Source: Vulcanimicrobiota bacterium
Lineage (GTDB): Bacteria > Vulcanimicrobiota > Vulcanimicrobiia > Vulcanimicrobiales > Vulcanimicrobiaceae
Reading direction: 5' to 3'
NCBI GenBank assembly: GCA_027315245.1
Contig: DAHUYK010000007.1
Location: 1 to 59,802 of the forward strand
DNA length: 59,802 nt
The position numbers were made by a program, and so were the translations under genes. The notes beneath the pieces were generated by a model, which saw only the letters and a program-made list of their open reading frames with translations, ran no database searches and was not told where the DNA came from. This document shows, in pieces, positions 20,102-24,835 of this stretch (position 1 is its first letter; the number at the start of each line of letters is the position of its first letter).

Positions 20102-21228
20102 TGCACGAACTCGTCAATCTCGTGGTCGCGCTCGACGAGCGATTCGACGAAGCGGCGTGCGCTTCGGCTCGCCTGCGCGTTGCGGCAACAGAATGTACGG
20201 TCGAGGAGCGCGGGAGCGCCGACGATCGCACCCTGGCATGGATCGATCTGCGGTTCGGCGGATCGTGGAGCGGCGAAGCACTTCGCTCGCGCAACGTCGT
20301 CGCCGCGCGTGACGGTGAGCCCGTCGGCTTTGCGTCGTTCGCTGCGCAGGGTTTGCGCTTCCGGTGGCTGCGCGGCATGGCGAGCGAGCCCGGTGTCGGC
20401 GTCTTCGGCCCGTTCGGGGTGACAGCGAGCGAGCGCGGGCGGGGGACCGGAGGCGCGCTTGCGACAGTTGCGTTATGCGGGTTACGCCGTCTTGGCTTCA
20501 AGAGGGCGCTCATTGCAGCGGTGGGCGACGAACGGCTCGTAGAGTGGTACGCGGGCGCCTGCGGCGCCACGGTAGCGGAGCGTTTCGATCGCTCCGCGCT
20601 TGTATCGCGCACGCGCGCGGTGGTCATGGCGTCGGGTGCGGGAACGAACGCGCAAGCGGTGATGCGCGCGTCGCAGCACAGTGCGATTCCGCTCGACATC
20701 GCCGCGGTCGTGACGAATCATGCGGATGCCGGCGTGCGGGAACGTGCGAGTGCGCTTGGAGTGCGGGACGTCGTGCTGGAGTGGCGACGGGACGCTGAGA
20801 CGCGTGAGGCCTACGACGAGCGGCTCCTGCAATGCGTTCTCGCGCTGCAGCCAGAGCTCGTGCTCTTGCTGGGCTGGATGCATCTCCTGCCATCGCGGTT
20901 CGTGGATGCGTTTGGGGAGCTGCTGAACTTGCATCCTGCATTTCTGCCGCTCGATCCTTCACGCGACGTCGTCGGCATGCCCGATGGCTCGATGATCCCG
21001 GTATTTCGTGGACCGCACGCTGTGCGCGACGCCGTACGCATGGGATGCCGATGGATCGGCTCGAGCGTGCATCGCGTCACCGCGCAGACGGACCGCGGAT
21101 CAGTCTTGATGCGCGTGCCGTTGCAACTGCAGCCGGAAGAAGATGAAGAGCGGGTCTACGCACGCCTGCGAACGATGGAGCGCGCCATGGTGCCGCGCGC
21201 CGTCATGTGCTGGGCGTACGAGCGATGA
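20101..21228 (+). CDS. purN: GNAT acetyltransferase-PurN fusion
   Basis: This 375-aa protein is a two-domain fusion. Residues 1 to about 170 look like a GNAT acetyltransferase, with the acetyl-CoA loop region ERGRGTGGALATVAL and a preceding beta-strand set. Residues from about 175 are GAR transformylase (PurN). The substrate loop is VVMASGAGTNAQAV, catalytic Asn and His lie in LLNLHPAFLP, and SSVHRVTAQTDRGSVL supplies the second conserved His region and the catalytic Asp position. The folate-loop region LDPSRDVVGMPDGSMIPVFRG is longer than in standard PurN. The start GTG overlaps the purM stop. Its 3' end overlaps the convergent metX by 26 bp. Confidence 0.85.
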   Translation: MHELVNLVVALDERFDEAACASARLRVAATECTVEERGSADDRTLAWIDLRFGGSWSGEALRSRNVVAARDGEPVGFASFAAQGLRFRWLRGMASEPGVGVFGPFGVTASERGRGTGGALATVALCGLRRLGFKRALIAAVGDERLVEWYAGACGATVAERFDRSALVSRTRAVVMASGAGTNAQAVMRASQHSAIPLDIAAVVTNHADAGVRERASALGVRDVVLEWRRDAETREAYDERLLQCVLALQPELVLLLGWMHLLPSRFVDAFGELLNLHPAFLPLDPSRDVVGMPDGSMIPVFRGPHAVRDAVRMGCRWIGSSVHRVTAQTDRGSVLMRVPLQLQPEEDEERVYARLRTMERAMVPRAVMCWAYER

Positions 21229-22186
21229 TCGCGGTGAGCGCATGCGGTTCGGCCAAGAACGCGTCGTGCCCGTGATCGCTGCGCAGTTCCGCGTACGATG
21301 CATGCGCCCCTCGAGCGCGGAAGCGCTCTGAGGCGGCGCGCACGTCCTGCGGCCGAAAGAGCCAATCCGACGAGATTCCGACAAAGAGGAGGTTGGTACC
21401 GGCACGTATGCGCGCCTCGCGTACGTCGAACGCGTCCATCGCGCGCGTGAGCGTCGCATACGTTGCAGCATCCATGCGTGCAGAGAACGCTTGCGCTTGG
21501 CGGTCGAGGTAGCCCTCGACGTCGAAGCGATCGACGCCCGCGCGGTCCGGGCGCCTTCCGTGGCGCTCGTTCAGCAGCTCCTCCGACTTGTAGGTGAGCA
21601 TCGCGATCTTGCGTGCCAGGCGCAGTCCGCGGTCCGGGTCGAGGTCGAGCGCTTCACGTTGCACCGCGTTGAGCGCGACGCCCATGGCGCTGAAATGGTC
21701 GTGTGCGCCGACGACGATCGCACGGCCGACGCGATGCGGTGCGTCGAGCGCCCACTGCAGCGCCTGCATGCCGCCGAGCGAACCGCCGATGACCGTCTCA
21801 AGACGTTCGATTCCCAGCACGCTCAGCGCGCGCTGCTGCGCGCGCACGATGTCGGCAACGGTGACGCGGCCGCAAGAGATCGCAGATGATCCATAGCATC
21901 CGCCCAGCACGTTGATGCCGATGACACTCCAGGAACCGTCGGCGAAGAGCCCGCCCTTCTCGAACATACCGGGCCACCAATCGCGAACGCGGCTCGAACC
22001 GGTGAGTGCGTGCGTCACGAGTGCGATGCGCTCGGCGGCCCCTCGACCTCGTTCACTTCGTGCGCTATGCCCGGGATATAGGGTGACGCGCTGAGTGGCG
22101 CGGTCGAGGCGTTCACCGGAATCGAGCGTGAACGCCCCGATTTCGACGTCGAGTTCCTGCGCTTCCATCGGCTGGGACGCGATCAC
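21203..22186 (-). CDS. metX: Homoserine O-acyltransferase
   Basis: This alpha/beta-hydrolase-fold protein, 327 aa, activates homoserine for methionine synthesis. It has the oxyanion segment LVTHALTGSSRV, INVLGGCYGSS, the nucleophile elbow VIGGSLGGMQALQWA, and C-terminal GISSDWLFRPQD with RSDHGHDAFLAE carrying the catalytic Asp and His. Acetyl- and succinyl-CoA users share this fold, so the acyl donor is not settled; pairing with metY favours acetylation. The GTG start overlaps the metY stop (GTGA). An ATG seven codons in is an alternative start. Confidence 0.92.
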   Translation of the reverse strand: MIASQPMEAQELDVEIGAFTLDSGERLDRATQRVTLYPGHSARSERGRGAAERIALVTHALTGSSRVRDWWPGMFEKGGLFADGSWSVIGINVLGGCYGSSAISCGRVTVADIVRAQQRALSVLGIERLETVIGGSLGGMQALQWALDAPHRVGRAIVVGAHDHFSAMGVALNAVQREALDLDPDRGLRLARKIAMLTYKSEELLNERHGRRPDRAGVDRFDVEGYLDRQAQAFSARMDAATYATLTRAMDAFDVREARIRAGTNLLFVGISSDWLFRPQDVRAASERFRARGAHASYAELRSDHGHDAFLAEPHALTAIIARTPST

Positions 22187-23478
22187 GCCGAGAGCGCCTG
22201 CTCGAGGTCGCCGATGATGTCGCGGCGGTCCTCGATACCGATCGAGAGCCGGATCGTCGATGCGTCGATTCCGCTGCGCAACCGTTCGGGGACCTGCAGC
22301 TGCTGGTGCGTCGTCGACGCAGGGTGAATGACGAGGGACTTCGCATCGCCGACGTTCGCGAGAAGAGAGAAGAGCTTCAGCCGATCGATGAGCGCCTTTG
22401 CTTCCCTCTCACCACCGTCGACGCGGAAGGTAAGGATCGCCCCGAAGCCGCCGCGCAGATACTTCTTCGCGCGGGCGTGCGCCGGATCGTCCGCAAGCCC
22501 TGGGTACGAGACGCTGCGGACGCGTGGGTGACGTGCGAGAGACTCGGCGACGGCGAGGGCGTTGCTGCAATGCCGCTCCACGCGCACGCCGAGCGTCTCG
22601 AGACCTTGGAGCAGCAGCCACGCGTTGAAGGGTGAAAGGGCCGCGCCGACATCACGTAGCAGCTGTACGCGCGCCTTGACAATGTACGCTTGATTGCCGA
22701 ACGCCGCTGCGTACTGTAGACCGTGGTACGACGGATCGGGTTCGGTAAACTCCGCGAAGCGTTCGTGCGCTGTCCAGTCGAAAGAGCCTCCGTCGACGAT
22801 GACGCCGCCGATCGCCGTGCCATGACCGCCGATGAACTTCGTCGCCGAGTGCACGACGACGTCTGCTCCCCAGTCGAACGGGCGCAGAAGATAGGGCGTT
22901 GCCAACGTGTTGTCGACGATGAGGGGAAGGCCGTGCGCGTGCGCGATCGCCGCGACGGCTTCGACGTCGAGCACGTCGATCTTCGGGTTTCCGATCGTTT
23001 CGGCGAAGAGCGCCTTTGTGTTCGGGCGAATGGCGGATACGATGGCCGTGGGATCGGAGAAGTCGACGAGTGAGACCTCGACGCCGAAACGCGGCAGCGT
23101 GTGTGCGAACGCGTTGTAAGTGCCGCCGTAGAGAGAGGCCGCGCTCACGACGTGATCGCCGGCGCGCGCGATGTTGAGAATGGAATAGACGACGGCTGCC
23201 TGTCCGCTTGCCGTCGCGAGCGCGCCGGCGCCGCGTTCGAGCGCAGCGACGCGCTGCTCGAAGACGTCGGTCGTCGGGTTCATGATGCGCGTGTAGATGT
23301 TGCCGAACTCCTCGAGGGCAAAGAGTTTGCCGGCGTGGTCGGTCGAGTCGAAGAGATACGAGGTCGTCTGATAGATCGGCACGGCGCGTGCCTTCGTCGC
23401 CGGATCGCCGGCGTGTCCGCCGTGCACGGCAAGCGTGTCGAAATGCGGTACGGCGTCAGCGTGTGCTGTAACAGTCAT
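22183..23478 (-). CDS. metY: O-acetylhomoserine sulfhydrylase
   Basis: This PLP-dependent Cys/Met-metabolism enzyme, 431 aa, makes homocysteine from O-acetylhomoserine and sulfide. The N-terminus FDTLAVHGGHAGDPATKARAVPIYQTTSY is typical. YTRIMNPTTDVFEQRVAALE and the PLP-lysine motif VVHSATKFIGGHGTAIGG follow, with VIHPASTTHQQL in the C-terminal domain, also diagnostic of this branch. Direct sulfhydrylation means no cystathionine intermediates are needed. It is the middle gene of hom-metY-metX; its start overlaps the hom 3' end by 23 bases. Confidence 0.95.
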   Translation of the reverse strand: MTVTAHADAVPHFDTLAVHGGHAGDPATKARAVPIYQTTSYLFDSTDHAGKLFALEEFGNIYTRIMNPTTDVFEQRVAALERGAGALATASGQAAVVYSILNIARAGDHVVSAASLYGGTYNAFAHTLPRFGVEVSLVDFSDPTAIVSAIRPNTKALFAETIGNPKIDVLDVEAVAAIAHAHGLPLIVDNTLATPYLLRPFDWGADVVVHSATKFIGGHGTAIGGVIVDGGSFDWTAHERFAEFTEPDPSYHGLQYAAAFGNQAYIVKARVQLLRDVGAALSPFNAWLLLQGLETLGVRVERHCSNALAVAESLARHPRVRSVSYPGLADDPAHARAKKYLRGGFGAILTFRVDGGEREAKALIDRLKLFSLLANVGDAKSLVIHPASTTHQQLQVPERLRSGIDASTIRLSIGIEDRRDIIGDLEQALSA

Positions 23479-24532: not shown

Positions 24533-24570
24533 TCTCGGTACTCCTGGTGAGATGGGAAGTGCGAGAAACG

Positions 24571-24597
24571 AAAAGCCCCTCGCGTTCTGCGAAGGGC
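24571..24597 (-). terminator. Intrinsic terminator before hom (attenuator)
   Basis: On the reverse strand, GCCCTTCGC and GCGAGGGGC form a nine-pair stem (one G-U) with a five-base loop, followed immediately by TTTT. It stands 38 bp before the hom start and after the leader peptide stop, which is where a transcription attenuator should be. A competing pairing is possible between GACGCCC at the 5' side of the terminator and GGGCCGTC (one bulged C) within the leader region near 24642-24653. It would sequester the terminator arm and act as antiterminator. Pairings were worked out by eye. Confidence 0.7.
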
Positions 24598-24627
24598 GTC
24601 TGGTTGAAGCGTTTGCTCTTTTTAGCT

Positions 24628-24717
24628 CTACGTATCGCTTCCCACGACGGCCCCGCGCGCATGCATGATCTGCATACAGCACATGGAGCACATCGGCGTC
24701 GTCGCGAGCAGAGACAT
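24628..24717 (-). CDS. Met/Cys-rich leader peptide of the hom-metY-metX operon
   Basis: A 29-codon reading frame lies upstream of hom on the same strand, ending in TAG about 95 bp before the hom ATG. An alternative start at 24693 gives 21 codons. The core, from 24693, reads MCSMCCMQIM: five Met and three Cys in ten residues. This is the classic look of an attenuation leader peptide sensing charged tRNA-Met and tRNA-Cys, in front of an operon for exactly these amino acids. No strong ribosome site is visible. The two other frames here are also open, one of them Cys-rich, so this is a probable rather than certain gene. Confidence 0.6.
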   Translation of the reverse strand: MSLLATTPMCSMCCMQIMHARGAVVGSDT

Positions 24718-24835
24718 TTCGAGCAGGGTACCACGAACCGAGGCGAGGGTCAAGAGGTCCGCGGCGCCATGCTTTCTTCAGTTGTTCCTTCGCCCTTCAT
24801 CACGGCGCTGTACCATACGACAGAGGAGATTACGC

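Follow-up and report, generated by a model that had tools for sequence, protein, structure and literature searches.

A predicted leader-peptide attenuator with Met and Cys codons before the hom-metY-metX operon of a Vulcanimicrobiota bacterium

Control of methionine genes is usually ascribed to SAM-sensing riboswitches, T-boxes or repressors. The hom-metY-metX operon examined here lies in a 59,802-nucleotide stretch of genomic DNA from a Vulcanimicrobiota bacterium, analysed as a whole and called the window below. It is preceded by a short frame containing a run of Met and Cys codons and then by a terminator. The question is whether this arrangement is a ribosome-mediated transcription attenuator for Met plus Cys, as an earlier note made from the letters alone had proposed. 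A leader attenuator with Met codons is unexpected, since a shortage of Met starves initiation too.

The leader region and its operon

The features of the region are collected in Table 1. The frame with its MCSMCCMQIM core and stop is present as first described. Met and Cys make up 7/28 of its residues, where the local background is 2.7% (binomial p ~8e-6), and among the 417 ATG frames of 15–40 codons in the whole window it is the sole case with at least seven. Folding of the 185-nt leader RNA, a check proposed in the earlier note, gave a structure more stable than dinucleotide shuffles (z = −2.8). The nine-pair terminator, GCCCTTCGC-AGAAC-GCGAGGGGC-TTTT at 24597..24575 (−), is likewise where it had been placed; it is the only terminator-like site on either strand between 24300 and 25100, and 38 bp lie between the end of its T-run and the hom ATG (24532).

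Table 1 Features of the hom-metY-metX region (positions in the window)
Feature	Position	Strand	Evidence
Predicted promoter, TTGACC (24753-24748), 17-nt spacer, TACCCT (24730-24725)	24725..24753	(−)	
Leader peptide frame, MSLLATTPMCSMCCMQIMHARGAVVGSDT-stop	24628..24717	(−)	ORF translation; conserved Met/Cys core, pN/pS, Met/Cys enrichment
Regulatory codons, codons 9-18, MCSMCCMQIM	24664..24693	(−)	Translation, enrichment, pN/pS
Segment 2, predicted antiterminator 5' strand (GCGCGGGGCCGUCGUGGGAAGCG)	24636..24658	(−)	Nascent-RNA folds; shuffle and permutation tests
Predicted antiterminator 3' strand, last 9 nt = terminator 5' arm	24589..24611	(−)	Nascent-RNA folds, permutation, modest column covariation
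Intrinsic terminator, 9-pair stem GCCCTTCGC/GCGAGGGGC (24597-24575) and T-rich tail TTTTCGTTTC	24565..24597	(−)	Terminator scan, stem covariation
Shine-Dalgarno-like AGGAG of hom	24541..24545	(−)	Sequence reading
hom, homoserine dehydrogenase without ACT domain, sole one found in genome	23456..24532	(−)	Domain and genome search
metY-like, Cys/Met metabolism PLP enzyme, start inferred, overlaps hom end	22183..23478	(−)	Domain search
metX-like, alpha/beta hydrolase (homoserine O-acetyltransferase type)	21203..22186	(−)	Domain search

The position of the predicted promoter bears on how the frame is read. In the window, 7 nt separate the end of the −10 box from the leader AUG, so that the transcription start is expected at or beside the AUG. 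The leader is thus very probably translated as a leaderless mRNA, an inference from promoter geometry for which there are no 5'-end data. A TTGAC/TAnnnT promoter with a spacer of 17–18 nt lies upstream of 32/34 leaders in the window and its relatives, with 7 nt between the end of the −10 box and the ATG in 30 of them; as a background control, the same geometry occurs at just 2/1592 ATGs of the window. A stricter generic promoter scan of the window region did not list the leader promoter. A transcription start downstream of 24628 would have undone the proposed reading; the promoter-like sequence of conserved geometry is instead found upstream of the leader, again without 5'-end data.

The predicted Hom protein consists of NAD_binding_3 and Homoserine_dh domains only, in line with the previous statement that it has no ACT domain, and the two genes that follow encode a MetY-like (Cys_Met_Meta_PP) and a MetX-like (alpha/beta hydrolase) protein. 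The source genome, assigned to Candidatus Eremiobacterota (2.12 Mb, 169 contigs, 96% complete), gave no match above the cut-off for threonine synthase. It contains a cystathionine beta-synthase-like gene adjoining a gamma-lyase-like gene, and also a CysK-like gene; family membership and gene order are the grounds for calling the first two CBS and CGL. Homocysteine from the operon could feed methionine and, via reverse transsulfuration, cysteine, which we infer would give a reason for both kinds of codon. At locus L172, a strong inverted repeat, CGCCTTCGC-GAAT-GCGAAGGC, stands just before the CBS-like gene and overlaps the first ATG of its frame.

Conservation of the module and its codon content

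Homologues of hom were detected in 92/148 genomes and about 70 upstream regions were inspected; a covariance model of the module (R1) was used to search the relatives. Met/Cys leaders are found in 15 genera of the family, loci before metY included, and the module recurs complete, with promoter, Met/Cys codons, antiterminator strand and terminator. The earlier reading would have been refuted by loss of the Met/Cys codons or of the stem in relatives, and both are kept. Over 34 leaders, in which 15% of residues are Met and 8% are Cys, the consensus is approximately xxMMCPMCCMQMHAxxAVV, and the Met columns of the alignment are conserved as strongly as the Cys columns. Both residues are kept in leaders of unrelated nucleotide sequence (MNRRSLAMMMCCCSPRGTV, MNGRCMAIMAMC..., MSAMMCMCETCM). 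The leaders of genera g24 and g11 are weak, with just four Met/Cys codons each, and more distant versions (MNLTSMSAMMCMCETCMVSHAEARALSK and MKRRRTCCTMMTGTRREFRSRCMREE) occur in two genomes of a second family of the class. The pN/pS ratio is 0.37–0.41 in the Met/Cys core, ~0.9 at the N-terminus and ~1.2 over segment 2. These values are rough because the peptides are short, and the pattern is the one expected of an attenuator, in which codons count in the core and base pairing counts downstream of it.

In 33/33 leaders of complete sequence the stop codon is followed by a GC-rich stem that has a T-rich tail; one of the 34 (L021), broken by Ns, was left out of the terminator and antiterminator counts. 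When 21 terminator stems were aligned, 94.7% of cells were paired compared with 47–66% in slid controls, and compensatory double changes were seen in 9/12 pairs (32 cells), a level reached in 0/500 shuffles. The covariance analysis that had been called for thus finds the stem to be strongly compensatory.

The alternative pairing with the terminator 5' arm that had been visible by eye is also supported. In 33/33 complete leaders, the stretch of nascent RNA that runs from the core's end through the terminator 5' arm is predicted to form a hairpin of 17–29 pairs containing the arm, and the mean pairing of the arm falls from 0.86 to 0.29 once the upstream part is shuffled and the arm kept. The antiterminator halves pair better with their own partners than with swapped ones (−27.3 vs −22.4 kcal/mol; z = −7.6, 0/50,000 permutations). 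These statistics are not exact probabilities, since related sequences are not independent. A gapless 14-mer variant of the swap test was weak (p ~0.03) because GC-rich arms cross-pair. Column covariation of the antiterminator is modest (73.6% paired vs 37–54% slid, with double changes in seven pairs). RNAalifold found no consensus pairs on the antiterminator sequence alignment, probably as a result of register shifts, and the permutation of whole hairpins was used instead. In g36 leaders nearly the same nucleotides (GGGUCGUCGUGA) occur in a different reading frame and include the stop codon, which points to constraint at the RNA level. A protector (1:2) hairpin overlapping the regulatory codons is predicted by folding in the window; across relatives its mean of 0.74 vs 0.63 for shuffled sequences is not significantly above the shuffles, and it was rejected as a proven element.

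The genes that the module accompanies are informative. It precedes hom in most of the genera that possess it, and in g20 and one g30 genome (G055) the Met/Cys leader is directly upstream of metY, hom being elsewhere in g20, near a threonine synthase gene. The gene order in g9 (L220-L222, L225) is Met/Cys leader, metY, metX, Thr/Ile leader, hom; MNRRSLAMMMCCCSPRGTV and MNGRCMAIMAMCATREGWCRSSSP are examples of the former leader and MFAHGVITTTMTTTLGEGGSGSTSA of the latter. Thr/Ile-rich leaders before hom are found in g9 and g19 (L121, L123, L125, L127, L128, L131, L133-L136, L150), and every one is accompanied by a terminator of its own and by a strand complementary to the 5' arm of that terminator. 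Codon identity, Met/Cys before metY-metX and Thr/Ile before hom, thus fits the downstream gene. The sequences link the module to the met genes rather than to hom as such, since in some genera it stands directly before metY and hom may have the Thr/Ile version. The attenuator reading put forward in the earlier note is strongly supported by comparison, with two refinements, namely that the start is very probably leaderless and that the module is linked to the met genes and not to hom itself.

Several loci depart from this arrangement. Some genera have hom without an upstream leader in the regions inspected. G003, of the window's own genus (L005, L168), has a promoter-like sequence upstream of hom with neither leader nor terminator between the two, and no metY separates its hom from metX. 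Eight loci (L117, L118, L120, L122, L124, L129, L130, L144) share a different promoter-like sequence and 5' region upstream of hom, and no leader frame or terminator was seen before hom in them. The g9 gene cluster carries two predicted attenuators of different codon content, and in two g9 genomes (L153, L155) a second homoserine dehydrogenase gene lies between the CBS-like and Cys/Met PLP-enzyme genes. In G005 a leader of the same score occurs at the ends of two contigs, L194 (C268) and L113 (C308), perhaps an assembly or strain duplicate.

A model of the element and its alternatives

Comparison of the sequences establishes a constrained Met/Cys core, the promoter position, the terminator, a mutually exclusive predicted antiterminator and the conservation of all of these. 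On this basis we are confident, short of certainty, that the element is a ribosome-mediated transcription attenuator through which charged Met-tRNA and Cys-tRNA control hom-metY-metX. It is an inference that the ribosome stalls, that transcription terminates, that Met and Cys are what the element responds to and that initiation is leaderless; the evidence is computational, with no expression, term-seq or ribosome data. Transcription would begin at or beside the AUG, and the leader would be translated as a leaderless mRNA. With Met and Cys plentiful, the ribosome would pass MCSMCCMQIM quickly, reach the stop and cover part of segment 2; the 24597-24575 hairpin would then form and transcription would end. 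With either scarce, the ribosome would stall in the core and leave segment 2 free to pair with the region holding the terminator 5' arm, and RNA polymerase would enter the operon. A ribosome resting on the stop may be enough to keep segment 2 blocked, without a protector hairpin.

A point against this model is that Met shortage should slow initiation as well. Only one amino acid, most likely Cys, might be sensed, with the other codons incidental or kept for RNA pairing. We think this unlikely. In its favour, adjacent ATG and TGC mean that a nucleotide motif ATGTGC yields both residues, the +1 frame is likewise somewhat rich in Met/Cys (0.16), Met limitation would lower initiation, and Cys-only leaders are known in actinobacteria (PMC1262725). 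Such a sensor does not account for Met columns as well conserved as the Cys columns, for leaders that retain both residues over unrelated nucleotides, or for an operon whose product is methionine. In the attenuator model too, much of the signal may come from the Cys codons.

The remaining alternatives concern the step that the leader acts on, or whether it acts at all. Stalling could work through translation, by ribosome access to hom, or through Rho-dependent termination, and mycobacterial polycysteine leaderless uORFs are reported to work by translation attenuation (PMC13236596); an intrinsic terminator that is always present, covaries strongly and has a T-rich tail, together with a predicted antiterminator that includes its 5' arm, makes this improbable here. 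Direct binding of SAM or uncharged tRNA by a riboswitch or T-box, with the short frame incidental, is very improbable. Methionine genes are often controlled by such elements, which likewise have a terminator at their end, but the window has no Rfam family at gathering score, T-box included, the core of the frame is under constraint at the protein level and its codons vary with the downstream gene. SAM-I (RF00162) has no match in the window or in G000, and a search with strict filters found none in the class, and SAM-I was set aside as the regulator; SAM-I riboswitches are present in other classes of the phylum (L184-L189), several near a MetB-like gene. Chance or artefact, with a terminator that has nothing to do with the short Met/Cys frame, is hardly credible: high-GC DNA has many stems and short frames are common, but only 1/417 short frames in the window is alike, and the arrangement is kept in 15 genera with covariation.

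Returning to the attenuator, we consider it probable, with distinctly more reservation, that the class has a modular two-signal device reading the charging of Met- and Cys-tRNA jointly in place of SAM riboswitches, with codons fitted to the gene (Met/Cys for metY-metX, Thr/Ile for hom), and that Met codons would here, for the first time, form the basis of a leader-peptide attenuator. It would extend ribosome-mediated attenuation to Eremiobacterota, a little-studied phylum. Variants found in nature (leader upstream of hom, leader upstream of metY, Met/Cys beside Thr/Ile, leader absent) lend themselves to asking whether specificity follows from codon identity alone and whether transcription attenuation can be coupled to leaderless translation.

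Relation to known systems

Our literature search found no Met or Met plus Cys leader peptide; subscription literature was mostly not covered, and this absence is not proof. To the Proteobacteria and Actinobacteria, where leader peptides were already known, a 2010 survey added the Firmicutes (PMC2965389). For methionine control in Proteobacteria, PMC4239095 lists MetJ, MetR, SahR, SamR, SAM/SAH riboswitches and the metXZ RNA element. The last, from beta-proteobacteria, is like the present module in its predicted terminator-antiterminator control of metX/metZ; it differs in having six conserved RNA regions and a pseudoknot, and the section describing it mentions no leader peptide (PMC4239095). 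SAM-I riboswitches and the Met T-box are also cis-acting RNAs that control methionine genes by premature termination, but in them SAM or uncharged tRNA is bound by the RNA itself, and neither has a match here.

Actinobacterial Cys leaders and mycobacterial polycysteine uORFs share with this leader a Cys-rich short frame before sulfur amino-acid genes; leaderless translation, as in the mycobacterial uORFs, is inferred here from promoter geometry. The mycobacterial uORFs (Canestrari et al., cited in PMC13236596) are reported to act by translation attenuation; control without an intrinsic terminator, taken as a mark of that type, does not fit here, where a covarying terminator is present. Predicted actinobacterial Cys leaders have no conserved terminators, and for actinobacterial methionine operons the authors report no conserved upstream RNA structures (PMC1262725); the present module has Met codons in addition, and a covarying terminator.

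Classical attenuators (thrL, trpL, hisL and the ilv leaders) have, like this one, a short frame rich in codons for the product, followed by an antiterminator and an intrinsic terminator that exclude each other. Among them, thrL is similar to the Thr/Ile leaders that stand upstream of hom in g9. In contrast to the classical cases, the protector hairpin is unsupported here, and the leader combines Met with Cys codons, is very probably leaderless and belongs to Eremiobacterota.
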